Shown piece by piece: positions 1 to 35,812 of a stretch of DNA of 35,812 nt. The stretch covers positions 1-35,812 of the IMG/VR virus record IMGVR_UViG_3300031951_000598; one strand, 5' to 3'. Origin of the DNA: a virus. Under the pieces are notes generated by a model. That model had not been told where the DNA came from and made no database searches. It was given only the letters and a program-made list of their open reading frames with translations. The position numbers and the translations under genes are program-made. Position 1 is the stretch's first letter. Every line of letters starts with the position of its first letter.

Positions 1-127
1 CCGGTGGAAACTATCCAACCTTCGAGCTGGGTTTTGAACCAAGTTCCGATCAACTTGTATTTATGAACAGAAGCGCATCGACATCCTATAACCACCGCTT
101 GGTAACGACTGCGCAGTATCGTGACCC
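1..127. repeat. Terminal direct repeat, left copy (circular-assembly overlap)
   Basis: These 127 bases are identical to 35686-35812. The copy lies inside a tail-fibre gene whose reading frame continues exactly across the seam. The length of 127 equals a common maximum k-mer size of short-read assemblers, so a circular-assembly overlap is more likely than a biological terminal repeat. Confidence 0.95.
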
Positions 128-5328: not shown

Positions 5329-5483
5329 CGCATCACCGCCAACACGATCACGACGCCGCCGGTCATCGCGCCGAGGATCGCGGAGACCATGAGGTAGACC
5401 GCCGGGCCTTTCGCCCAGCGGTCCTCTTCCATCCACCCGAACGCCTCTCCAGCGGCGCGGATGTGCGGGTTCTCGTCTCTCAC
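5325..5483 (-). CDS. 52-aa single-span membrane protein
   Basis: GTG at 5483 overlaps the recT stop (GTGA), and the stop overlaps the next GTG in the same way. The N-terminus is charged (RDENPHIRAAGEAFGWMEED). The C-terminus is a membrane helix (AVYLMVSAILGAMTGGVVIV then LAVMR). The size and topology fit a small envelope-targeted early protein. No homologue is recognised. Confidence 0.6.
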   Translation of the reverse strand: MRDENPHIRAAGEAFGWMEEDRWAKGPAVYLMVSAILGAMTGGVVIVLAVMR

Positions 5484-6412
5484 CCCGCCACCTCGGCCAC
5501 CCGGCGGCGGCTCTCCTCCATGATGCGCTCGTGCGCCTCGGCGCTGGCCGCGCTGATGTCGTCCAGGTTGCCGCGCTGCGCGAGCATCACGCGGTCGATG
5601 TCCTTGACCGTCTGGGCCTTGCGGATCGCCGCGACGATGGCGCGGGCGCGCTCGGCCAGCTCCTGCGGGAGTGCGCCTGTCGGGGCGTCCGGGGACGCTG
5701 CAGCCGGGGAGTCTGCATCCGACGCGGCAGGCGCGGTGTTGTCGGCCTCTTGTTCGGTGGCATCGAGGAGGGCGTCCATCGCCTGCGTGACTGCGGCGAG
5801 CGGCGACGAAGCGGGGGGCGGAGTGATGTCGATCGCGCCGGACGGGCCGCGCGCCTGCGAGTAGTCGATCTCGTCCGCGACCGGCAGGCCCATCATGACC
5901 TCGGGCGCGAACAGCCGGATCAGCATCGTCGCGCTGCGGTACCGCAGCATCTGGTCGGGCATGGTCCGGTACTTCGGATTCTTCGTCCAGCCCTCGGCCT
6001 CGGCCATCGCCATCGACGCCGTCGCCTCGACCGGCTCGCCGCTGTCGGCCAGGGTGGCCACCGCGGTCACGCGCAGGTTCTTGCCTTCGCCCTCAACGCG
6101 CCAGTTGATGCGCCGCGCGAACACGCCCGATCGGTTGGCCTTCGCGATCATGTAGGTGGCCGACCAGCCCGCGCGCCCGCTGACGAAATAGATGTTCTGG
6201 AGCACGACCAGCGGCTCCTCGCGCGTGCGCTTGGCGATCGCGTAGGCGATGAGGCAGTCGGCCATCTTGCCGCGCAGGTGCGGCGGGACGAGTTCGCTGG
6301 CGGCGAACATCTTGGCGACGCGCTGCGAATGCTCGAAATGCGCCGGCGCCAGCGGATCGTAGTCCGTCGTGACTGCGGGCAGGTTCACGATGTTGTTTGC
6401 GATGTCGGTCAT
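5480..6412 (-). CDS. recT: RecT-family single-strand annealing protein
   Basis: The 310-aa product carries the RecT signature around residues 143-181: TKNPKYRTMPDQMLRYRSA followed by RLFAPEVMMGLPVADE. The N-terminal half has the beta strands and EPLVVLQNIYFVSGRAGWSA segment usual for the family. After about residue 190 a low-complexity Ala/Pro/Asp linker (to about 245) leads to a helical tail. RecT proteins anneal complementary single strands and work with a partner exonuclease, encoded here immediately upstream with ATGA overlap. They support phage recombination and concatemer formation. Confidence 0.92.
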   Translation of the reverse strand: MTDIANNIVNLPAVTTDYDPLAPAHFEHSQRVAKMFAASELVPPHLRGKMADCLIAYAIAKRTREEPLVVLQNIYFVSGRAGWSATYMIAKANRSGVFARRINWRVEGEGKNLRVTAVATLADSGEPVEATASMAMAEAEGWTKNPKYRTMPDQMLRYRSATMLIRLFAPEVMMGLPVADEIDYSQARGPSGAIDITPPPASSPLAAVTQAMDALLDATEQEADNTAPAASDADSPAAASPDAPTGALPQELAERARAIVAAIRKAQTVKDIDRVMLAQRGNLDDISAASAEAHERIMEESRRRVAEVAG

Positions 6413-7278
6413 GCTGCGTACTCCCTCTGGATGCTGGTTGCGATCTCGTTGGCCGCCCAGAACGGGAGGCCAATTTCAAAAACACCGACGGTGTAGCCCG
6501 GCCAGTCTTGCGACGCAACGCTTTTCGCGAAGCGGCGCAGGATCTGGCGCAGCTGCTGGTCAGCGGCGCTGGCGGCCTCGGCGCTGAGCGCGGCGACGTA
6601 GCCCAGATGCGGGGCGTTGCTGCCGACGACCATGAAGGCGTGCGAGGGCCGCTGGACGCCGAGCAACCCGGCGACGAGGCGGAACATCGCGTCGCCCAGG
6701 TCGTAGCGGAGATTGGCGCAGGTGCGCCGCCATGCGTTCGGCGCGGGGTTCGCGGTGGTCTTGAGGTTCACCGCCAGCCCGGCCCTGCCGATCCACAGGT
6801 CGGGACGGCACAGCAGCGTCAGGCCGGTTTCCTCGTCCTTCGCGATCATCGTGACCTCGGCCCGGCCGCCGGCCTCTAAGAGGCGGCGGGCGTCGGGCTG
6901 GGCCATGAGCGCGTCGCGCATCGAGATGATCTGCATGTGCGCGTCGAAGCTGATGATTGACCGGCCCTCCTGCGCGTCGCGCCACGCCCGGCCCTCGCGC
7001 GTCGAGAAGTTGAGGCCCTCGGGCTTGATCGCGTAGCGGTCGCGGAAGGCGTCGGCACCCTCCAGGATGTAGCAGTGCGCGGCGGTGCCGAGCGTCATCG
7101 CGGGCGTGCTGTCCGACTGGATGCGATCCGGGTTACCGCGCCAGAACGCGAAGGCGTGAGCCGGGCACTCGGTTTCGTAGGCGACGAGGTCGCTGCCGCT
7201 GACCGCCGGGGCCGGAATGCCGGTGCCGGACAGGTAGGTGGCGAAGTCGATGTCGTGGTGGATGCCTTCAGCGATCAC
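6409..7278 (-). CDS. RecE-like exonuclease (PD-(D/E)xK, DUF3799-type), with altered active-site residue
   Basis: This 289-aa protein starts with GTG. It has the RecE/DUF3799 landmarks: LGTAAHCYILEG (His68), Glu141, CRPDLW (Asp160) and NLKTT (Lys173). These correspond to the His, Asp and Lys of the E. coli RecE nuclease site. At residue 171 the expected Asp of Asp-x-Lys is Asn (codon AAC). The downstream motif usually written Y-x-x-Q-x-A-x-Y appears as YDLGDAMF, so its Gln is Gly195. It lies directly before recT, the usual exonuclease/annealase pairing. The family call is firm; full catalytic competence is doubtful from sequence. Confidence 0.82.
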   Translation of the reverse strand: MIAEGIHHDIDFATYLSGTGIPAPAVSGSDLVAYETECPAHAFAFWRGNPDRIQSDSTPAMTLGTAAHCYILEGADAFRDRYAIKPEGLNFSTREGRAWRDAQEGRSIISFDAHMQIISMRDALMAQPDARRLLEAGGRAEVTMIAKDEETGLTLLCRPDLWIGRAGLAVNLKTTANPAPNAWRRTCANLRYDLGDAMFRLVAGLLGVQRPSHAFMVVGSNAPHLGYVAALSAEAASAADQQLRQILRRFAKSVASQDWPGYTVGVFEIGLPFWAANEIATSIQREYAA

Positions 7279-7420
7279 TGGTCGTCTCCCTCTTGAGCTG
7301 GCGGTGGACCCAGCCGCGCAGGGCGGCGAGGCGGGACTGTTTCTTTCCGCGCGGGGCGTGGGCCGCGCGCTTGATCATGCTGCGGTAGGTCCGCAACAGC
7401 TTGCGGCGTTCGCTGGTCAT
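7268..7420 (-). CDS. Small basic protein, 50 aa
   Basis: ATG at 7420 overlaps the upstream stop (ATGA), and the end overlaps the recE-like start by 11 nt. The product is highly basic and helical (MTSERRKLLRTYRSMIKRAA, later KKQSRLAALRGWVHRQLKRE), which suggests nucleic-acid binding. Its tight overlap with the nuclease gene suggests coupled expression. No family is recognised. Confidence 0.6.
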   Translation of the reverse strand: MTSERRKLLRTYRSMIKRAAHAPRGKKQSRLAALRGWVHRQLKRETTSDR

Positions 7421-7617
7421 CGCTTGCCCTCCAGTTGCCTGACAACCAAAGTTGCTTCTGATGCATTCCGATATGAGCCAACGAGACGGACGACCTCTCC
7501 CTGCGGAAGATCCCTCCTCTGGGCTCGAGGCTTGGTCAGGTCGTACTCCCAGACTGCATATGACGTTCCGCGCGTTCCCCTGCCGCTGCTCATGGGGACG
7601 ATTGCAAACCGGCTCAT
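7417..7617 (-). CDS. Hypothetical 66-aa protein
   Basis: ATGA overlaps occur at both ends. The protein begins MSRFAIVPMSSGRGTRGTSYAVWEYD and ends with SEATLVVRQLEGKR. It looks like a small beta-rich domain of the kind found in many phage early regions (a short YAVWEYD strand, then a helix). No function can be assigned. Confidence 0.65.
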   Translation of the reverse strand: MSRFAIVPMSSGRGTRGTSYAVWEYDLTKPRAQRRDLPQGEVVRLVGSYRNASEATLVVRQLEGKR

Positions 7618-7796
7618 CGCTTGCCCTCCATCGCGGCAAGCTGGTGCTCCAACGCGGCGATGCGCTGGTGGGCCAGCAGGTAGTCGAGCGTCTCAGGGTT
7701 GAGGTCGCGGGCCAGCTCGACGCGCAACTGGATGCGCGCGCGGAGCGTCGCCGGGGTGTCCGGCAGGGCGCGGACAGCGGGGAGGGGGCGGGTCAT
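7614..7796 (-). CDS. Hypothetical 60-aa helical protein
   Basis: The gene is coupled at both ends by ATGA. It is Leu/Arg/Ala-rich and predicted helical (ARIQLRVELARDLNPETLDY, then ALEHQLAAMEGKR). It ends with the same EGKR tetrapeptide as the next gene (7417-7617), a match too short to show relatedness by itself. No family is recognised. Confidence 0.65.
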   Translation of the reverse strand: MTRPLPAVRALPDTPATLRARIQLRVELARDLNPETLDYLLAHQRIAALEHQLAAMEGKR

Positions 7797-7987
7797 GCTG
7801 CCTCCAGCGGCTGCTCGCTCAACACGCAGTCGAGCGCGTCGCGCAGGCGCTGCGCGTCGTAGGGGTCGAGGCGGATGGTCAGGCTGTCGATCTCGACGAT
7901 CACGCGGCGAAACTTTTCGCCGTGCTCGTAGGACCGCGCGGCGACCTTCTGCGCGCCCATGAAGGCGATCTCGATGTCGCGGATCAT
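7793..7987 (-). CDS. Hypothetical 64-aa protein
   Basis: The start overlaps the stop of the 20-aa micropeptide, and the stop overlaps the next ATG. The sequence (MIRDIEIAFMGAQKVAARSY, then RRVIVEIDSLTIRLDPYDAQ) reads as a small two-strand/helix domain. It has no transmembrane segment and no recognised motif. Confidence 0.65.
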   Translation of the reverse strand: MIRDIEIAFMGAQKVAARSYEHGEKFRRVIVEIDSLTIRLDPYDAQRLRDALDCVLSEQPLEAA

Positions 7988-8046
7988 GCCAGCACCATGA
8001 TCGCGGCGATGGTGGCGCCCATCAGGGCGGCGAACACGAGGTGCAT
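7984..8046 (-). CDS. 20-aa predicted membrane micropeptide
   Basis: The frame MHLVFAALMGATIAAIMVLA fills the gap between the first and next operon genes: its ATG is 2 nt after the upstream stop and its TGA overlaps the downstream ATG. GGAGGGCT lies just upstream on the minus strand as a usable ribosome site. The whole peptide is one hydrophobic helix. It is too short for any annotation cutoff, so support is positional only. Confidence 0.45.
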   Translation of the reverse strand: MHLVFAALMGATIAAIMVLA

Positions 8047-8048
8047 GG

Positions 8049-8318
8049 TCAGCCCTCCAGCTCGACGGTGATGGTGCTCTCGGCGTGAACCGCGATCTCG
8101 CTGACCATGTCGGTCACGCTGGCGACGCTGGTCTGGTACTCGCTGTCGAACGCCTTCGCGACCTCGACCGACATCAGCACGGTGCGGTCGATCTGCGCGC
8201 CGCAGATGTCTCGCAGACGCGTCAGCGCCGCGATGATGTCGCGCTCGGCGTTGGCCTTGGCGATGTCGATGCGGCGCAGAGCGCTCTCGCAGTCATCGAT
8301 GAACGACATGTTGCTCAT
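8049..8318 (-). CDS. First gene of leftward early operon, 89-aa hypothetical protein
   Basis: ATG at 8318 follows GGGAGAC by about 6 nt; an upstream in-frame ATG at 8369 lies within the promoter. The protein is mostly helical and acidic (MSNMSFIDDCESALRRIDIA, later RTVLMSVEVAKAF) and ends with a VHAESTITVELEG strand. As the promoter-proximal gene it should be the first and strongest early product. Function unknown; host-takeover or anti-defence roles are common at this position but unproven. Confidence 0.7.
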   Translation of the reverse strand: MSNMSFIDDCESALRRIDIAKANAERDIIAALTRLRDICGAQIDRTVLMSVEVAKAFDSEYQTSVASVTDMVSEIAVHAESTITVELEG

Positions 8319-8360
8319 AGTCTGTCTCCCCGGTTGCGTCGCCAACGCGGCGACAGGGCA

Positions 8361-8388
8361 AACATACACCAGCGGTGCAGGTCGTCAA
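8361..8388 (-). promoter_or_regulatory. Leftward early promoter
   Basis: On the minus strand, TTGACG (8383-8388) is followed after 16 bp by TATGTT (8361-8366). The spacer is filled by a 15-bp palindrome that ends on the first two bases of the -10. It faces the 15-gene leftward operon, whose first ATG is at 8318. Confidence 0.65.
8365..8379. promoter_or_regulatory. Operator palindrome, copy 1
   Basis: TACACC-AGC-GGTGCA: six-base arms with one mismatch and a 3-bp centre. The same 15-bp pattern occurs at 8419 and 12856, each time inside a promoter spacer. It is a likely site for a phage repressor. Confidence 0.7.
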
Positions 8389-8410
8389 CAGGTTCGTGCG
8401 AATAGTCTGC

Positions 8411-8437
8411 TTGACCTATACACGCGGGGTGTAGTAG
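8411..8437 (+). promoter_or_regulatory. Rightward early promoter
   Basis: TTGACC (8411-8416) is followed after 15 bp by TAGTAG (8432-8437), a weak -10, with the operator palindrome between them in the same geometry as the leftward promoters. A start near 8444 would give an almost leaderless transcript for the ATG at 8450, which has no Shine-Dalgarno. Confidence 0.5.
8419..8433. promoter_or_regulatory. Operator palindrome, copy 2
   Basis: TACACG-CGG-GGTGTA: five perfectly complementary outer bases in each arm around a 5-bp centre. It occupies the spacer of the rightward promoter, 40 bp from the first copy. Confidence 0.7.
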
Positions 8438-8449
8438 CCGTGGCGAACC

Positions 8450-8653
8450 ATGAACCTAGACCAGTTCCTCGCCGCCATCGGCGGCACTCTCGCGGCGGCT
8501 CGGGCATTCTCGACCTCGCCACAGGCCATCAGCAATTGGAAGCGGCGGCAGCGGCTTCCGGCGGCTCGCCAGCTCCAGGCGCTGCAGATCGCGCGCAAGA
8601 AGCGCCTGCGGTTCGACCCGGCGGCGGCGACGCAGCCCGAGGCGCGGCGATGA
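8450..8653 (+). CDS. Cro/YdaS-like HTH regulator
   Basis: This 67-aa protein is the first rightward early gene. It shows a helix-turn-helix of the YdaS/Cro type: MNLDQFLAAIGGTLAAARAF, then STSPQAISNWKRRQRLPAAR, where AISNWKRR is the recognition-helix pattern and LPAAR the usual following turn. The tail is basic. Its promoter and the divergent one carry the same palindrome, so it is the best candidate for the protein that binds it, acting as a Cro-like switch or autoregulator. No CI-like repressor with a peptidase or oligomerisation domain was found. Confidence 0.8.
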   Translation: MNLDQFLAAIGGTLAAARAFSTSPQAISNWKRRQRLPAARQLQALQIARKKRLRFDPAAATQPEARR

Positions 8654-9387
8654 GCCGGATCACCGCGATCGAGCAGGTCACCAACGCCCTGCGCGTCGCC
8701 GGAGGCCGGGTCACGACCTCTGATCTGTGCGCGGCGCTGCCGCAAATGGACCGCGGCGCGATCCTCGGCTCGCTGGCGCACCTCAAGCGCAAGCGCGTCG
8801 TCGAGAGCAATTACGTCCCTACGAGGCCGCCAAAGTGCGGCTGGACATACTGGTTCGCAGCCACGAGGCCCGTGCGCGGCTCGCGCTACCGCGCGGCGGT
8901 TTCGGCGGGGTTCACCCGGGTCATCTGCGAATGGATGGACAGCCAGGGCGGCGAGGCCAGCATCGAGGCGTGGCGGACTTGGATCGCGGGCATACAGAAC
9001 CGCATCCGGCTCAACAGCGCTATTCACTCGCTGCGCAAGCGCGGCTTGGCCGAGTGGGGCGACGACCGCGTCGCGCTTACGCCAGCGGGCCACAAAGCGC
9101 TCACGCTCGGTCGCAAGGTCGCGCCATACCCGCCGCAACTGCGGGATTTCGAGGACGGCGAGCCAGTCGAAGCGCAGCCATCTACCGATCCCGAGCAGAG
9201 CGTCGAGCGCGCCGAGCGCCTCTGGCCGCGGCTGATGGCCGGACGGCGCTTCGAGGACATCCCGGCGCATATGATCCGCCCGCTGAAGGTGCTGCGCTGG
9301 ACGCCGAGCGTCGAGGCGCGGAGCTTGACGGGGTCGAGCGGTGCCATGCTGGCGGAAAGCCGCAGCTCGATCGGGACGACGCCATGA
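8650..9387 (+). CDS. Double winged-helix-like early protein
   Basis: ATG overlaps the HTH stop (ATGA); 245 aa. The N-terminal region (MSRITAIEQVTNALRVAGGR, then VTTSDLCAALPQMDRGAILG) and a middle region (AGIQNRIRLNSAIHSLRKRG, then LAEWGDDRVALTPAGHKAL) each read like a winged-helix domain of the MarR/replication-protein kind. The C-terminal 80 residues are acidic and then disordered. The position between a regulator and a resolvase suggests transcription control or DNA metabolism. The family is not identified. Confidence 0.7.
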   Translation: MSRITAIEQVTNALRVAGGRVTTSDLCAALPQMDRGAILGSLAHLKRKRVVESNYVPTRPPKCGWTYWFAATRPVRGSRYRAAVSAGFTRVICEWMDSQGGEASIEAWRTWIAGIQNRIRLNSAIHSLRKRGLAEWGDDRVALTPAGHKALTLGRKVAPYPPQLRDFEDGEPVEAQPSTDPEQSVERAERLWPRLMAGRRFEDIPAHMIRPLKVLRWTPSVEARSLTGSSGAMLAESRSSIGTTP

Positions 9388-9749
9388 AGCGCAAATGGCA
9401 GGGTGTGATCCTGGGCGAGCCGGTGTCCAAGGCCAACTCGCGCCGGATCGTGAGGTTCGGCACGAAGCTGCGCGTCATCAAGTCCGAGAAGGGGCTGGCC
9501 TACGTCGAGGCCGTCGCGCGGCAGGTGCCGGAGTTGCCGCCGGATAGCCAGCTGCTGTCCCCGATCAGGCTGACCGCGCACATCTACTACAGCAGCAACA
9601 GGCCGGACCTCGATCCGAGCCTGCTGCTGGACGCACTGCAGAACCGCATCTACCGCAACGACCGCGCGGTGCGGGAAATGCACCTGTATCACCACCTCGA
9701 CCGCACGACGCCGCGCGCCGAGGTCTACCTAGAGGAGATCGACGAATGA
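9384..9749 (+). CDS. RusA-like Holliday-junction resolvase
   Basis: The 121-aa protein resembles RusA-family endonucleases. An early SKANSRR segment follows a GEPVSK strand, and the acidic centre RPDLDPSLLLDALQNRIYRN then DRAVREMHLYHH mirrors the usual D-x-D...D-x-L...DD arrangement of metal-binding Asp residues. RusA proteins resolve branched recombination and replication intermediates before packaging. It is coupled to both neighbours by ATGA. The family match is clear by pattern; activity is inferred. Confidence 0.78.
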   Translation: MKRKWQGVILGEPVSKANSRRIVRFGTKLRVIKSEKGLAYVEAVARQVPELPPDSQLLSPIRLTAHIYYSSNRPDLDPSLLLDALQNRIYRNDRAVREMHLYHHLDRTTPRAEVYLEEIDE

Positions 9750-10000
9750 CCGGCATCAACGACGACCTGACGAGCTACGCCGACCGCCTGACCCGCCTGC
9801 TCGACGCCGCCGACGAAGCGCGCGAGGACATCAAGCAGCTGCGCGTCGAGATCAAGTCCGCGGGCTACGACCCCGCTGCGCTGGTGCGCGTGGTGCAGCT
9901 GCGCCGCGACGAGCGCAAGCGGGCGAAGGAGCAGGAGCGGCTGCAGGCGGTCGCGCTCTACGCTGATCGGCTCGGGGTCCAGCTCGACCTCGCGCTTTAG
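9746..10000 (+). CDS. GapR-like (DUF2312) DNA-binding protein
   Basis: This 84-aa protein has the DUF2312/GapR layout: an N-terminal coiled helix (YADRLTRLLDAADEAREDIK), then the conserved AGYDPAALVRVVQLRRDE segment corresponding to the GFDVKALRKVIRLRK block, then a helix ending near LYADRLGV. GapR of Caulobacter and relatives binds overtwisted, AT-rich DNA ahead of replication forks. A phage copy next to replication genes could act at the phage origin or compete with the host protein. Start at ATG overlapping the rusA-like stop. Confidence 0.85.
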   Translation: MTGINDDLTSYADRLTRLLDAADEAREDIKQLRVEIKSAGYDPAALVRVVQLRRDERKRAKEQERLQAVALYADRLGVQLDLAL

Positions 10001-10153
10001 AAACCGGCCAGGCCCTCCCTTGCCGTCGCCGGCGGGCGGCGGAACCCTAAAACCAATCCAGCGCCAGTTGCGACGCGTCAACAGGCCCCTGGCCGGGTCG
10101 TTTACCTGATGGATCGGACCCGCCAACCAACCAATGAAACGGGAGAGTTCGAC

Positions 10154-10507
10154 ATGCGCGAAGAAGAGTCGACCGACGCAGTCACTCGGCTCACGAAAGA
10201 GCTGGAGATGTCCGATACAGCGCTGTTTGCGCAACTGCGCGAAAACCGAGTGCTAAAGGCGGCGCTTGAGGCGTCAAGAGAGGAAATCGAAAATCTGCAG
10301 GGCCTTATCGATCAACTCACGTCTGCAGATCGCGAAGTCGCTCACCGCGAGCACATTGAGGAGATGAGGCGGGACTACAGATTTAGATGCGACCAGCGCG
10401 TCGAAAAGCTCCGCGACGAGATCAGCAGCATCAAGTACGAAATGCACAAGCTGCGCCTTCGCAACGAAACGCTGATGCGAAAGAACGAGAAGCTGAACGC
10501 CCGTTGA
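10154..10507 (+). CDS. Coiled-coil early protein, 117 aa
   Basis: ATG at 10154 has GGGAGA 7 nt upstream. Nearly the whole product is charged heptad-like helix (VTRLTKELEMSDTALFAQLR, later RVEKLRDEISSIKYEMHKLR), with no membrane segment. It looks less GC-rich than adjacent genes. A 153-base stretch without a gene separates it from the GapR-like gene; within it a 9-bp inverted pair (10004-10012 and 10088-10096) is the only structure seen. The last codons run into the phased repeats at 10499. Function unknown. Confidence 0.7.
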   Translation: MREEESTDAVTRLTKELEMSDTALFAQLRENRVLKAALEASREEIENLQGLIDQLTSADREVAHREHIEEMRRDYRFRCDQRVEKLRDEISSIKYEMHKLRLRNETLMRKNEKLNAR

Positions 10508-10553
10508 ACACCGGTCTAGCGCCCGCTCAACGTCCGTTCAACGCCCGTTCGAC
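10499..10553. repeat. 11-bp phased repeats, candidate iterons
   Basis: Units close to GCCCGTTCAAC begin at 10499 (gcccgttgaac), 10521 (gcccgctcaac), 10532 (gtccgttcaac) and 10543 (gcccgttcgac), all in an 11-bp register. Weaker matches may continue to 10575. Spacing of one helical turn upstream of a replication gene is typical of initiator-binding iterons. The stretch from the end of the coiled-coil gene (10507) to 10738 contains no gene. Confidence 0.55.
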
Positions 10554-10622
10554 AGACGCTACACAAGCCGCTCACATCGCGTTCGTGCTTGACTTGAAAC
10601 GCTGACGACCCGCACAAATTAC

Positions 10623-10654
10623 GCGCCCCGCCGGGCTGGAACCGGGCGGGGCGC
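10623..10654. other. GC hairpin upstream of replication gene
   Basis: Arms GCGCCCCGCC (10623-10632) and GGCGGGGCGC (10645-10654) pair perfectly over 10 bp around a 12-nt loop. No U-tract follows in either direction, so it is either a weak terminator or a structural element of the origin or leader region. Confidence 0.6.
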
Positions 10655-10656
10655 AA

Positions 10657-10677
10657 CGGACTGCACCAACCAGTCCG
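10657..10677. other. Second hairpin upstream of replication gene
   Basis: CGGACTG (10657-10663) pairs with CAGTCCG (10671-10677) around a 7-nt loop, two bases after the first hairpin. The tandem arrangement in the leader of the DUF1376 gene suggests a folded RNA or single-strand DNA structure. Confidence 0.55.
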
Positions 10678-10738
10678 GCCACAATGGCGCGCTGAACCTA
10701 TCGCGCGCGGCGGGCCGGATCAACGCGAAAGGGCGCTG

Positions 10739-11608
10739 ATGGACCCGCTAGTACCGCCGGAGGTCGATCTCCGGAATTTCACCTACATGCCGCTCGACGT
10801 GGTTCGGCTGCGCGACAGCGACATCGCGGGCGTCGAGGACGGCGAAGTCTTCCGCGCGGCGGTCCTCGCGTGGTGCGCCGCTTGGCATCAGGTTCCCGCC
10901 GCCAGCTTGCCCGACGACGACGCCCTGCTGGCCCGCCTGACCGGCTACGGACGCGACATGGCGACCTGGAGGCGGGTTCGCGAGGCTGGCGCGCTGCGCG
11001 GTTTTGTGCGGTGCAGCGATGGCCGTCTCTACCACCCGGTTGTGGCCGAGAAGGCGTTAGAAGCATGGGACAAAAAGGGCCGCCAAGCCGAGCGCACGCG
11101 ACGCGCCACGGAGGCCGCTGCGGAGCGCGCACGGGTGCGTAGAGAATCCGTTACGGATTCCGTAACGGACTCCAAGGAGAGGAGAGGAGAGGAAAGGAAT
11201 AGAGAGGAAAGAGATATCGGAGACGTCCCTCTTAGTTCTGGGGGGTCCGGGGGGACGCGCGCAGAGCGCGCCGACCGCGGGACGCGCCTGCCGGCGGACT
11301 GGGCTCCGACGGAGGATGACCGCGCGTTCGCGGCCGGCCTAGGCGTCGCGGTTGACCGCGAGGCGGCGTCGTTCCGCGACTACTGGCACGCAAAGCCCGG
11401 CGCGGACGGGCGCAAGACCAACTGGTCGGCAACCTGGCGCAACTGGGTGCGCCGGACATCGGAAAGGAAGCAGGGCAATGGCACAGGATCTCGATCTCAG
11501 TCCCGCAACGGGTTTATCGTTCTCGCTGAGCGCCTTGCTCGGGAGGATGCAGACCGAGCAGCCGGGCGCCCCGCTGGCGATTTCTTCGACCCAGAAGGCC
11601 GAGGCTGA
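10739..11608 (+). CDS. DUF1376-type phage replication protein
   Basis: The 289-aa product has the DUF1376/YdaU pattern in its first 120 residues: FTYMPLDVVRLRDSDIAG, FRAAVLAWCAAWHQVPAASL PDDD in two adjoining blocks, LARLTGYGRDMATWRRV, and DGRLYHPVVAEKA. A charged linker (about 125-165: VTDSVTDSKERRGEERNREE) joins a C-terminal DnaT-like segment with LPADWAPTEDDRAFA and RKTNWSATWRNWVRR. Such proteins are thought to load the host replicative helicase at phage origins. The linker-coding DNA holds a 23-bp palindrome and a purine tract that may be the origin. The last 131 nt overlap the next gene. Confidence 0.82.
   Translation: MDPLVPPEVDLRNFTYMPLDVVRLRDSDIAGVEDGEVFRAAVLAWCAAWHQVPAASLPDDDALLARLTGYGRDMATWRRVREAGALRGFVRCSDGRLYHPVVAEKALEAWDKKGRQAERTRRATEAAAERARVRRESVTDSVTDSKERRGEERNREERDIGDVPLSSGGSGGTRAERADRGTRLPADWAPTEDDRAFAAGLGVAVDREAASFRDYWHAKPGADGRKTNWSATWRNWVRRTSERKQGNGTGSRSQSRNGFIVLAERLAREDADRAAGRPAGDFFDPEGRG
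11147..11169. repeat. 23-bp inverted repeat inside the DUF1376 gene, candidate origin element
   Basis: TCCGTTACGGA (11147-11157) and its exact reverse complement TCCGTAACGGA (11159-11169) are separated by one base. They encode the VTDSVTD part of the protein linker. A 41-nt tract (11174-11214) follows with only one pyrimidine on the top strand. Confidence 0.6.
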
Positions 11609-12068
11609 GCGGGCTCTAGCCGCGATCGAGGCCGCCCTGCAGCCCGCGCCGCAAGCGCTGGCGCTGCGCTGGATCTCGGCGCTCGGCACCCTGACCGCGA
11701 CCAAGCCGGGCGAGGCCGACGGCGATGCCAAGGCCAGGGCCTACGCGGCGATGCTGGAATATCCGGGGTCAGCGTTCAGCCGGGCGAGCCTCGACGCGGC
11801 GGCGCGCAAGTTCAGGTGGTTTCCCAGCTACGCCGAGGTCTGCGAGCACCTCGAGGCCGAGGTCGCGGCGGCGAAGGCCCAGCGCCACCAGCTGCGCCGG
11901 GCGGTCGCGCTGCCGGCGGAGGGGTCGAGGCCGGCTGGCAAGTGGTCCACGATGACCGACGAGCAGAAGGCGGAATTCGAGGCGACGATGGAGAAGTTCC
12001 GGTCCCGGTTCGCCTCGGATGCCTCGCGCGGCCCAGAGGATGGCGCAGGAACGCCGGAAGCCCGCTAA
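11478..12068 (+). CDS. Replication-associated hypothetical protein overlapping DUF1376 gene
   Basis: ATG at 11478 is preceded by GGAAGCAGGG. The 196-aa protein contains ALALRWISALGTLTATKPGE, AYAAMLEYPGSAFSRASLDA and ARKFRWFPSYAEVCEHLE, a pattern seen in small proteins encoded after phage replication initiators. It may be a loader or partner of the DUF1376 protein. The first 131 nt are shared in another frame with the end of that gene; the only nearby internal ATG (11547) has its GGGAGG too close. The stop lies inside a long hairpin. Confidence 0.68.
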   Translation: MAQDLDLSPATGLSFSLSALLGRMQTEQPGAPLAISSTQKAEAERALAAIEAALQPAPQALALRWISALGTLTATKPGEADGDAKARAYAAMLEYPGSAFSRASLDAAARKFRWFPSYAEVCEHLEAEVAAAKAQRHQLRRAVALPAEGSRPAGKWSTMTDEQKAEFEATMEKFRSRFASDASRGPEDGAGTPEAR

Positions 12069-12108
12069 CCCATGGCAGGGTAGCGGGCGACCGGCTTCCG
12101 GCGTTCCT
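12047..12108. terminator. Long bipartite hairpin between convergent operons
   Basis: AGGAACGCCGGAAGC (12047-12061) pairs perfectly with GCTTCCGGCGTTCCT (12094-12108). Inside, CCGCTAACCC (12062-12071) pairs with GGGTAGCGG (12078-12086) with one missing base, leaving a 6-nt loop. It lies at the meeting point of a rightward and a leftward operon, so it can act as a bidirectional terminator. The right-hand gene's stop codon is in the left arm. Confidence 0.8.
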
Positions 12109-12117
12109 AGGGCCGTT

Positions 12118-12321
12118 CTAGGCGTTTTCGGGCCGGAGATGCCTCGGCAGACGCTTGTAGGCGGTCCTGACCGCGTCCTGCCACTCTCCGGCGGTCATCA
12201 GGTCGGTGTCCGCGACGCCTCGGCGCAGAAGCACGTCGCGCAGCTGCTCGGCGTCGAGGAGGCTGGCCTCGCGCATCGCGTGGCGCAGGCGGGTGAGGCT
12301 CATGGTCGGGTGGACGCGCAT
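12118..12321 (-). CDS. Hypothetical 67-aa protein
   Basis: ATG at 12321 lies 2 nt after the upstream stop. The product is basic and helical (MRVHPTMSLTRLRHAMREAS, later LRDVLLRRGVADTDLMTAGE and DAVRTAYKRLPRHLR), possibly a small DNA-binding domain. It is the last gene of the three-gene leftward operon at 12.8 kb. No family is recognised. Confidence 0.6.
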   Translation of the reverse strand: MRVHPTMSLTRLRHAMREASLLDAEQLRDVLLRRGVADTDLMTAGEWQDAVRTAYKRLPRHLRPENA

Positions 12322-12323
12322 GG

Positions 12324-12539
12324 TCAGGCCACCCGGTGCAGGCCGCCGTGCGGCACGAAGTCGTACTGCGCGCCGTTGCGACCGGTCAGGCGGTAGACAT
12401 CGGGCTCGCCGCCGGGCGTCAGGATCTTGTGGGCGACCGTCAGGGTCAGGAAGCCGACCTTGACCGTGCTGCCGATCGACCATTCCTGCTTGGGCTTGCC
12501 GGTCGGGGCGAAGCGGCTCGGGCGGTAGTAGTTGGTCAT
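12324..12539 (-). CDS. Hypothetical 71-aa protein, small beta domain
   Basis: ATG at 12539 follows GGAGAC by about 6 nt. The protein begins MTNYYRPSRFAPTGKPKQEW and continues with strands such as STVKVGFLTLTVAHKIL and PDVYRLTGRNGAQYDFVPHG, reading like a small SH3-like or RNA-binding beta barrel. Similar short proteins are common in phage early regions without assigned function. It is followed closely by the 67-aa gene. Confidence 0.65.
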   Translation of the reverse strand: MTNYYRPSRFAPTGKPKQEWSIGSTVKVGFLTLTVAHKILTPGGEPDVYRLTGRNGAQYDFVPHGGLHRVA

Positions 12540-12585
12540 CGTCGTCTCCGTGGGTTGGTTGATGCGTGGATACTGCGGGAAGGTT

Positions 12586-12619
12586 GCGGGGTTGAGGAGT
12601 GCGTTTCCTGCAACCCCGC
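12586..12619 (-). terminator. Hairpin within leftward satellite operon
   Basis: GCGGGGTTG (12586-12594) pairs with CAACCCCGC (12611-12619), extended inward by AGGA/TCCT with one bulge. It lies just after the stop of the first gene (12626) on the minus strand and before the second. With no U-tract it may only partly terminate or may protect the mRNA end. Confidence 0.45.
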
Positions 12620-12625
12620 TATGCG

Positions 12626-12805
12626 TCAGGCGAGCTCCCACTCAAAACCCTCGCCCGTGATCTTCGCGCAGCACGCGGGCAGCTCCGACTTGCGAACCGT
12701 GAACGACACCGCGCCGCCCAGGCGCTGCTTGGCGGCCTCGCTCGCGCAGCGAACGACCACCTCGGTGGCGGCGAAGTCGGAGGAGAGGATCTGGAAGTCG
12801 GCCAT
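12626..12805 (-). CDS. Hypothetical 59-aa protein, first gene of satellite early operon
   Basis: ATG at 12805 is preceded by AGGGAGG at good spacing. The protein (MADFQILSSDFAATEVVVRC, later GGAVSFTVRKSELPACCAKI) looks like a compact alpha/beta domain with three Cys residues. Its promoter carries the same operator as the two main early promoters, so it should be expressed with them. Function unknown; a small, separately promoted, operator-controlled early gene is a candidate host-interaction factor. Confidence 0.65.
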   Translation of the reverse strand: MADFQILSSDFAATEVVVRCASEAAKQRLGGAVSFTVRKSELPACCAKITGEGFEWELA

Positions 12806-12851
12806 GTGGGCCTCCCTGGTTTGGCGCCTCGGCGCCGGTTTCGATGAAAGG

Positions 12852-12879
12852 AACATACACCGCCGGTGCAGGATGACCA
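12852..12879 (-). promoter_or_regulatory. Leftward promoter of satellite operon
   Basis: On the minus strand TGGTCA (12874-12879) and TATGTT (12852-12857) are 16 bp apart, with the operator palindrome in between. The -10, spacing and operator position match the leftward promoter at 8361-8388. Confidence 0.6.
12856..12870. promoter_or_regulatory. Operator palindrome, copy 3
   Basis: TACACC-GCC-GGTGCA. It differs from copy 1 only in the 3-bp centre and shares the flanking GAACA/AAACA context that forms the -10 on the minus strand. Confidence 0.7.
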
Positions 12880-12906
12880 TTGCAAAGAACGCGGGGCGTT
12901 ATGCGC

Positions 12907-12938
12907 TTGACGCATGGCTAAAATTGGCGCAATAAAAT
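12907..12938 (+). promoter_or_regulatory. Possible rightward promoter of the late/methylase unit
   Basis: TTGACG (12907-12912) precedes an AT-rich stretch, AATAAAAT (12931-12938), just before the methyltransferase ATG at 12942. Spacing is 18-20 bp depending on the -10 chosen. No Shine-Dalgarno is present, so a leaderless transcript is possible. The late genes that follow have no stronger promoter that I can see. Confidence 0.35.
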
Positions 12939-12941
12939 TAC

Positions 12942-14192
12942 ATGATCCAGATCGAGCGCATCGGCGTCGAGGCGCTGATCCCATATGCCCGCAACTCGCG
13001 CACCCACAGCGACGCGCAGGTAGCCCAGATCGCGGCGTCGATCCGAGAGTTCGGGTTCACGAACCCCGTTCTCGTGGACGAAGCGAATGGCATCATCGCG
13101 GGCCATGGCCGCGTCCTGGCGGCCCGCAAGCTGAAGATGCCGGATGTGCCGGCGATCCGGCTTTCGCACCTGACCGAGGCGCAGAAGCGAGCCTACGTCA
13201 TCGCGGACAACAAGCTAGCGCTTAACGCCGGCTGGGACATCGAACTGCTGCGGCTGGAGATCAACGACCTGCGCGGCCTGGAGTTCGACGTGGCGCTGAC
13301 CGGCTTCTCGACCGAGGAGCTCGACGCGCTGATGGCCGCGCCGGGAACCGAGGGCCTGACCGATCCCGATGCAATCCCAGAGGCGCCAGAGCAGCCGATC
13401 GCGGTGCCGGGCGACGTGTGGCTACTGGGGCGGCACCGGCTGGTCTGCGGCGACTGCACCGATCCGCTTGCGGTCGAAAAGGCGTTGAGCGGCGTCAAGC
13501 CGCACCTGATGGTCACCGACCCGCCTTACGGCGTCGAGTACGACGCCAACTGGCGAAACGAAGTCGATCGCAAGAACGGCAAGCCCTACGGCGCTCGCGC
13601 CGTAGGAAAGGTCAAGAACGACGACAAGGCCGACTGGCGCGAAGCATGGGCGCTGTTCCCCGGTGATGTTGCCTATGTCTGGCATGCGGGAAACATGGCG
13701 CACGTTGTGGCCGAAAGCCTGATGGCCTGTGATTTGGGCATTCGCGCGCAGATTATTTGGGCGAAGAGCCAGTTCGTGATCGGCAGAGGCGACTACCATC
13801 CGCAGCATGAGCCTTGCTGGTACGCCGTTCGAAAGGGCCGCAAGGGCCATTACGACGGCGGCCGAAAACAATCGACGCTGTGGCAGATCGACAAGCCCCG
13901 CAAGTCTGAGACTGGCCACAGCACGCAGAAGCCCGTCGAGTGCATGAAGCGCCCCATTGAGAACAACTCCTCGCCGGGGCAGGCGGTCTACGAGCCGTTC
14001 AGCGGGTCAGGCACCACCATCATCGCCGCCGAGATGACGGGCCGCGCGTGCCACGCGATCGAGCTCAATGCGGCCTATGTCGATGTCGCAGTGAAGCGCT
14101 GGCAGGAGTTCACCGGGCAGGCTGCGACTCTGGAGGGCGATGGCCGCAGCTTCGCTGACATGGCGACCGAGCGATGCAAAGCCGACGCATGA
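12942..14192 (+). CDS. ParB-like domain fused to DNA methyltransferase
   Basis: In this 416-aa protein, residues 1-95 form a ParB/sulfiredoxin-like domain with IIAGHGRVLAARKL (AGHGR at 53-57). From about 155 onward is an amino-methyltransferase with DPPY (193-196) before FSGSGTT (353-359), the beta-class order, so N6-adenine or N4-cytosine methylation. The fusion is common in phages and mobile elements. Likely roles are protection against host restriction or methylation-dependent regulation of packaging. No partner restriction enzyme is encoded nearby. Target sequence cannot be read. Confidence 0.9.
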   Translation: MIQIERIGVEALIPYARNSRTHSDAQVAQIAASIREFGFTNPVLVDEANGIIAGHGRVLAARKLKMPDVPAIRLSHLTEAQKRAYVIADNKLALNAGWDIELLRLEINDLRGLEFDVALTGFSTEELDALMAAPGTEGLTDPDAIPEAPEQPIAVPGDVWLLGRHRLVCGDCTDPLAVEKALSGVKPHLMVTDPPYGVEYDANWRNEVDRKNGKPYGARAVGKVKNDDKADWREAWALFPGDVAYVWHAGNMAHVVAESLMACDLGIRAQIIWAKSQFVIGRGDYHPQHEPCWYAVRKGRKGHYDGGRKQSTLWQIDKPRKSETGHSTQKPVECMKRPIENNSSPGQAVYEPFSGSGTTIIAAEMTGRACHAIELNAAYVDVAVKRWQEFTGQAATLEGDGRSFADMATERCKADA

Positions 14193-23076: not shown

Positions 23077-23104
23077 CCCCAACCCTCTGTAAGGAGTGCC
23101 ATTC

Positions 23105-24106
23105 ATGGCGTTCGCGAACAGTTCGATCAGCGATATCATCGCGACGAACATCCAGTCGCGTTCCGGCGAGCTCGCCGACAACGTGACCAACAACAACGCG
23201 CTGCTGCGTCGCCTCAAGGAGCGCGGCAACGTGAAGACCTTCTCGGGCGGTAACGTGATCCTTCAGGAGATCATGTACAACGACAGCTCGACGAACAACA
23301 CGAACTCCTACTCGGGCTACGAGGTGCTCAACGTCTCGCAGAACTCGCCGATCTCCGCGGCGCAGTTCTCGATCACGCAGTACGCCTCGGCAGTCTCGAT
23401 CTCGGGCCTGGAGATGATCCAGAACTCGGGCAAGGAGGCGATCATCGACCTGCTGGATGGCCGCATGGCTGTTGCGGAGGCGCAGCTCGCCAACCGCATC
23501 GGCGGCGACATCTACCTCGATGGCACCGGCAACTCGGGCAAGAACATCACCGGCCTCGCGGCCGCGGTGCCCGACAGCCCGGCGACCGGCACGTACGGCG
23601 GCATCAGCCGCGTGTCGTGGTCGTTCTGGCGCTCGGTCGCCTTCTCGGGCGTGACAAACGGCGGCTCGGCCACGACGGCGTCCAACATCCAGCAGTACAT
23701 GGATTCGGTCGCCGTGCAGCTGATCCGTGGCACCGACAAGCCCGACCTGATCGTCGCGGACAACAACTACTACCGGCTCTATCTGCAGTCTCTGCAGTCG
23801 ATCCAGCGCATCTCGGACAGCGGTTCGAGCATGGCTGGCGCGGGCTTCGCGTCGCTCAAGTACTACGGCGCGGGCATGGCCTCCGATGTCGTCCTCGACG
23901 GCGGCATCGGCGCGGCGGCGACGGCGAACCACATGTGGTTCCTCAACACCAAGTACCTGCACTTCCGCCCGCATGCCGACCGGAACTTCGTGCCGATCGG
24001 GGGCGAGCGTCAGGCGGTCAACCAGGACGCCATCGTCAAGCTGATCGGCTGGGCCGGCAACCTCACCAGCAGCGGGCCGCAGTTCAGCGGCGTGCTGATC
24101 GCCTAA
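23105..24106 (+). CDS. Major capsid protein
   Basis: AAGGAG (23091-23096) lies 8 nt before ATG 23105, supporting this start over GTG 23096; 333 aa. The start MAFANSSISDIIATNIQSRS then GELADNVTNNNALLRRLKER and FSGGNVILQEIMY are characteristic of a capsid family in many podoviruses, expected to have the HK97 fold. It is flanked by a scaffold-like gene and a decoration-like gene and followed shortly by a strong terminator, as expected for the most abundant virion protein. Confidence 0.92.
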   Translation: MAFANSSISDIIATNIQSRSGELADNVTNNNALLRRLKERGNVKTFSGGNVILQEIMYNDSSTNNTNSYSGYEVLNVSQNSPISAAQFSITQYASAVSISGLEMIQNSGKEAIIDLLDGRMAVAEAQLANRIGGDIYLDGTGNSGKNITGLAAAVPDSPATGTYGGISRVSWSFWRSVAFSGVTNGGSATTASNIQQYMDSVAVQLIRGTDKPDLIVADNNYYRLYLQSLQSIQRISDSGSSMAGAGFASLKYYGAGMASDVVLDGGIGAAATANHMWFLNTKYLHFRPHADRNFVPIGGERQAVNQDAIVKLIGWAGNLTSSGPQFSGVLIA

Positions 24107-35459: not shown

Positions 35460-35812
35460 ATGATCGTCCCCGGCTCCGCGAACGCTCTGCTGCTGGCCTC
35501 GCTTGCGGGCTACCAGGTCCCCTACTCGCTGCGGTTTCGCGCGAGCAACAGCGCCAACCTTCGGAAGACGTTTTCCTCCGCATCTACCAACTTCGATGTG
35601 CAGACCATTTCTCTATGGTTCAAGCGAGGTCGCCTTACGCTGACAGACAGCCCCATTGCGAATTGCCTCATTACGCAATTCGGGTCCGGTGGAAACTATC
35701 CAACCTTCGAGCTGGGTTTTGAACCAAGTTCCGATCAACTTGTATTTATGAACAGAAGCGCATCGACATCCTATAACCACCGCTTGGTAACGACTGCGCA
35801 GTATCGTGACCC
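35460..35812 (+). CDS. LamG/SPRY tail fibre, N-terminal part (continues at 1-1487)
   Basis: ATG at 35460 is 4 nt after the fibre stop; the frame crosses the seam (35685/1) without interruption. The N-terminus begins MIVPGSANALLLASLAGYQV then PYSLRFRASNSANLRKTFSS, leading into the LamG-like strand QTISLWFKRG. Base composition shifts to lower GC after about 35570. Joined length is 570 aa. Confidence 0.85.
   Translation, partial: MIVPGSANALLLASLAGYQVPYSLRFRASNSANLRKTFSSASTNFDVQTISLWFKRGRLTLTDSPIANCLITQFGSGGNYPTFELGFEPSSDQLVFMNRSASTSYNHRLVTTAQYRD
35686..35812. repeat. Terminal direct repeat, right copy (circular-assembly overlap)
   Basis: Identical to positions 1-127. Removing one copy leaves a 35,685-bp circle. 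Confidence 0.95.

Follow-up and report, generated by a model that had tools for sequence, protein, structure and literature searches.

Candidate operators of a Cro/YdaS-like protein in the divergent early promoters of an uncultured phage family

Introduction

P22 and lambda have tripartite operators that are shared with the C2 or CI repressor, and lac O2 is an intragenic auxiliary operator. YdaS, encoded by the cryptic prophage CP-933P of Escherichia coli O157:H7, has been called a Cro equivalent; its binding sites overlap the two divergent promoters, one of which is its own (PMC8630535). That Cro and YdaS regulators can have operators overlying divergent promoters is established (PMC8630535). 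Short HTH proteins with palindromic operators are found across the Cro family, as in P22 Cro, Xfaso 1 Cro (3bd1) of Xylella and PY54 Cro.

Here we analyse the control region of a viral sequence of 35,812 nucleotides (IMG/VR record IMGVR_UViG_3300031951_000598, positions 1 to 35,812), referred to below as the window. As in CP-933P (PMC8630535), a small HTH protein is encoded by the first gene of the rightward operon. The leftward operon, unlike that of CP-933P, is a RecE/RecT operon; the half-site is TACAC, as against the CP-933P inverted-repeat consensus GTTTAGTAA; and the window yielded no partner repressor, whereas in CP-933P the CI equivalent PaaR2 binds overlapping sites. The short HTH protein and palindromic sites of the window agree with the Cro family, but PY54 Cro binds one site, probably without repressing its own promoter, and so differs from what we propose. 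In contrast to P22 and lambda, each promoter of the window has one site only, and a search for CI found none. One site, O1, resembles lac O2 in lying inside a gene of the presumed controlled operon (recE), but at 1.6-2.1 kb from the main operators it is unlike lac O2, and looping is hypothetical. The features that appear distinctive are the missing CI partner, the intragenic candidate operator and a cargo slot with a putative operator.

Results

The two ends of the window (1-127 and 35686-35812) form a direct terminal repeat of 127 bp, typical of an assembler k-mer overlap on a circular map, and the window is for this reason probably a complete circular genome of 35,685 bp. The terminal repeat of one relative, G005, is likewise 127 bp long. 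The major head protein (23096-24106) shares 49-52% identity with those of the Myxococcus phages Mx8 and Mx9, the Stenotrophomonas phage BUCT555 and the Bradyrhizobium phage ppBjS10J-1. The leftward operon begins with an ORF of 89 aa (8049..8318, minus strand), with a Shine-Dalgarno-like GGGGAG upstream of its ATG, and includes a RecE-like PD-DEXK exonuclease (6409..7278, minus; PHROG 412, E 6.5e-59; PF12684) and a RecT-like annealing protein (5480..6412, minus; PHROG 561, E 8e-63; PF03837). Rightward, the gene of a 67-aa HTH protein (8450..8653, plus strand) is followed by an ORF of 245 aa (8650..9387, plus) that overlaps its stop codon (ATGA). Neither the 89-aa nor the 245-aa ORF has a family match in Pfam or PHROG.

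The 67-aa protein, the presumed regulator, shows Cro/YdaS-like matches in Pfam, PHROG and PDB profiles. The Pfam scores stay below the family cut-offs: 24.5 against 30 bits for YdaS (PF15943; E 2.4e-5) and 21.4 against 30.2 bits for P22_Cro (PF14549; E 2.1e-4). PHROG 409 and 35 match at E ~1e-6, and the PDB profiles recover Xfaso 1 Cro 3bd1 (E 0.0017) and Xph1 5w8y; the AlphaFold model is of poor quality (pLDDT 61). As expected of a Cro-like protein, it is short, has a single HTH domain of the Cro/CI superfamily, and is accompanied by palindromes both in its own promoter and in the early promoter that diverges from it; in clade 2 the distal half of the latter site (OL) is degenerate. It is the only HTH protein of Cro/CI type detected in the window. 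Named phages gave no tblastn match, and a genome collection of 84,980 species contained no close homologue, with only five weak partial matches.

We detected four palindromic sites, none of them assigned to a strand. OL (TACACCAGCGGTGCA, 8365..8379) lies in the leftward promoter and OR (TACACGCGGGGTGTA, 8419..8433) in the HTH gene promoter, both established by direct reading of the sequence. An earlier note on this DNA had described these two copies as 40 bp apart; both are present at 8365 and 8419, and the actual gap is 39 bp (54 bp from start to start). It had counted only these two, and missed a candidate operator within the recE-like gene, ~70 bp ahead of the recT start (O1, 6481..6495), identified by its palindrome match and frozen rare codons, and a further candidate copy at a leftward promoter-like block before a variable small-gene slot (O4, 12856..12870), identified by its palindrome match and the conservation of the block. 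The degenerate pattern used at first, with two mismatches allowed, gave 8 strand-matches in the window against 4.7 expected, which is not significant, and a stricter palindrome was adopted for this reason. With at most one mismatch to the perfect palindrome TACACCNNNGGTGTA there are 4 sites against 0.01 expected from shuffled sequences; this palindrome was formulated after the sites had been seen, and the main evidence is their conservation, not the four-site count. Nine family records carry 4 sites per record in clade 1 and 2 in clade 2, and a backward control pattern has no match in them. A literature search with the written operator found no paper, which does not prove it undescribed.

The leftward promoter PL (TTGACG-16-TATGTT, minus strand) has a sigma-70-like -35 at 8383..8388 and a -10, invariant in relatives, at 8361..8366, agrees with the consensus in 9 of 12 positions and is the sole sigma-70-like match within 5400-13100. 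The rightward promoter PR (plus strand) has its -35, TTGACC, at 8411..8416, where GCTTGAC is invariant in relatives, and after a 15-nt spacer a probable -10, TAGTAG, at 8432..8437, where AGTAG is invariant. With a -10 of weak consensus and a short spacer, PR is assigned by conservation and not by consensus score. A distant relative (L079) has TATAAT in the same place and at the same spacing. An alternative -10 with an 18-nt spacer, TAGCCG, was rejected because in some relatives transcription would then start within the ATG or beyond it; an extended -10, considered as the cause of the conserved GGTG, was rejected for its wrong register. Direct reading bears out that in both promoters the palindrome fills the spacer between -35 and -10 and that the -10 begins with the last two palindrome bases. 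Because the HTH ATG follows the PR -10 by only 12 nt (9-12 nt after TAGTAG in relatives) and no evident Shine-Dalgarno sequence precedes it, the HTH mRNA is predicted to be nearly leaderless, with a start at 8443-8445 and a leader of 5-7 nt. The PY54 cro and cI mRNAs are leaderless (PMC4488713), and the HTH mRNA would match that of PY54 cro to within a few nucleotides.

A search with the 67-aa protein recovered 52 IMG/VR loci (64-100% identity by best segment). In a first reading of their upstream regions, with no selection for the motif, the OR palindrome was already visible. We then compared 28 distinct control regions from loci picked by ACATACACC; the only locus with OR lost through this selection, L026, lies on a contig that ends short of OL. 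OR reads TACAC-N5-GTGTA in 24 of the 28 regions and differs from it by one base in the remaining 4. The promoter-proximal half of OL, AACATACACC (TACAC), is invariant in all 28, while its distal half is GTGCA in 11, GTGTA in 1, GTGAC in 7 and CTTTA in 9, the last two forms being those of clade 2. The start-to-start distance between OL and OR stays at 54-55 bp despite a clade-specific linker sequence, and the most distant member (L054, 60% over the full alignment) has three perfect copies of the palindrome. The palindrome is thus found upstream of RecE/RecT operons in relatives, where the earlier note had proposed to look for it. Its picture of two matching operators stands as to their shared geometry; the loss of the distal OL half in many relatives had escaped it. 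OR appears to be a strongly conserved candidate operator and OL a weaker one, or one partly decayed in clade 2, where it would be at best a weak operator whose conserved half overlaps the -10. Four cousins (L080, L088, L089 and L147), in which RusA alone of eight early window proteins was matched, repeat the OL/OR layout with TAAAC or GTTTC half-sites at OL.

O1 reads TAC ACC NNN GGT GTT/GTA on the recE coding strand. In 27 distinct recE genes its Gly codon is always GGT, which makes up 11% of Gly usage there, and its Val is encoded without exception by GTT or GTA, which jointly make up ~10% of usage; among 17 columns of conserved Gly, GGT is fixed in the operator column alone. Over the spacer, the encoded residue differs between genes (Val, Ala, Thr, Asp, Arg). 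Because rare codons are frozen while the spacer amino acid varies, codon usage indicates that O1 is constrained at the DNA rather than the protein level, and promoter elements do not explain this constraint. With no convincing promoter at O1, its role is a guess.

The surroundings of O4 (AACATACACCGCCGGTGCAGG) nearly repeat those of OL and include a -10-like TATGTT (12852..12857, minus strand). O4 lies ~50 bp before a leftward ORF of 59 aa (12626..12805, minus) that has no family match in Pfam or PHROG. The promoter-operator block (12810-12890) is conserved in 23 loci, and the first leftward ORF behind it, as called mechanically, belongs to ~9 different, unrelated types of 59-90 aa. This suggests that the region at 12.86 kb is an exchangeable slot for early accessory genes with putative operator control.

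We scanned IMG/VR, leaving out the family of the window, for TTGAC-N3/4-TACAC-N5-GTGTA and for a permuted-palindrome control, and compared ORFs starting at most 60 bp downstream of the sites with Pfam. Among the matches listed, YdaS was found in 10 of 59 ORFs against 0 of 49 in the control and HTH_3 in 10 of 59 against 1 of 49 (one-sided Fisher 0.0016 and 0.0097); these values are optimistic, as the scan matches include related phages and the YdaS-type ones are largely one sequence cluster. The protein-seeded loci L055-L066 fell within the scanned range, and L063 is therefore not independent. Ten scan ORFs checked singly comprised four that match YdaS or Cro, four that match XRE-type HTH_3 and two without a match. 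The promoter-palindrome is thus associated with Cro/YdaS/XRE genes in unrelated phages, which strengthens the earlier choice of the HTH protein at 8450 as candidate regulator. In another phage group (L068, L071, L140 and L141), TTGAC-N4-TACAC-N5-GTGTA-TATTG precedes a structural-looking gene, not a regulator.

The window has no match to HTH_3 or Peptidase_S24, so that the divergent CI of a lambdoid arrangement was not detected; the neighbouring ORFs on the left have no family match in Pfam or PHROG. The statement that no CI-type repressor is present therefore holds for the window. A relative, G006, does carry a CI-type repressor with an S24 peptidase domain (L301 13012-13692; G006:C1:38011-38691), divergent from a second Cro-like ORF that is cut by the contig end. 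No tyrosine integrase (PF00589) was detected in nine family records, and no serine integrase (PF00239) in seven; the window showed neither.

Discussion

It is very probable, judging from the sequence, that the 67-aa HTH protein acts as an autorepressor of the Cro-like kind which also represses the recE/recT operon and the O4 slot, with O1 as a presumed auxiliary site. A common regulator for both early operons, suggested earlier, is supported by the shared geometry and by conservation in relatives. From the positions of the sites we infer the mechanism, including binding, repression, the order of site filling and timing. A dimer would bind TACAC-N5-GTGTA, a site whose complete form approximates TACACC-N3-GGTGTA. 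At OR the dimer would occupy the -35/-10 spacer of the HTH gene's own promoter and exclude RNA polymerase; at OL it would block in the same way the promoter driving the 89-aa ORF, the RecE-like exonuclease and RecT, and at O4 that of the exchangeable small genes. O1 may act as a roadblock, or as a looping partner over ~1.9 kb (1.6-2.1 kb). On infection the three promoters would be open at first, and accumulating HTH protein would then turn the early genes down. Steric block at three promoters combined with negative feedback is the simplest reading of these positions.

The same protein might instead be a lysogeny-type repressor, providing a one-protein immunity switch for a silent extrachromosomal prophage. 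Its place as the sole detected Cro/CI-type HTH protein of the window, positioned to control both early operons, and the CI-S24 module acquired by G006 agree with such a role, which we nevertheless regard as unlikely: no integrase was found, no close homologue was detected in the genome collection, and self-repression yields homeostasis, not two stable states, of which the sequence supplies no second. The switch suggested in the earlier note is not supported as one between lysis and lysogeny: with no second state-holding element, control of both promoters by one repressor amounts to feedback and not bistability. The term governor fits the system better than switch.

That only promoter elements are conserved, the palindrome being a by-product of two similar -10 regions, is more doubtful still. 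Such an origin would suit clade 2, where just the -10-overlapping half of OL is kept, but OR is conserved on both sides, the GGTG beside the -10 is out of extended -10 register, and O1 has its rare codons frozen in a coding gene that lacks a good promoter.

Phages are known to use host regulators, and a host protein binding the palindromes would tie early transcription to the state of the host. With this general precedent but no computed result in its favour, the idea is highly improbable here, since phages on widely differing contigs have the site ahead of Cro/YdaS/XRE genes, and the site occupies the usual position for autoregulation. The least credible alternative is activation of one promoter by the HTH protein, for which the weak TAGTAG and 15-nt spacer of PR would speak, since a dimer within the spacer would block RNA polymerase and TATAAT occupies the corresponding position, equally spaced, in L079.

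Under autorepression by the HTH protein, the sites would define, at the level of DNA, a small regulon of Cro type in a family of uncultured phages. TACAC-N5-GTGTA in a promoter spacer is a testable candidate operator that finds Cro/YdaS/XRE genes elsewhere, and the recE site may offer an example in which an operator restricts the choice of synonymous codons. The promoter conserved at 12.86 kb would mark a slot in which early accessory genes of unknown function can be gathered. More tentatively, with a chance somewhat short of even, the family may represent a phage lineage with one Cro-type regulator, no CI and four operators, including a site kept by codon choice in recE and an operator at the cargo slot. 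If this is true, swapped-in cargo genes would fall under the timing control of the phage on arrival.
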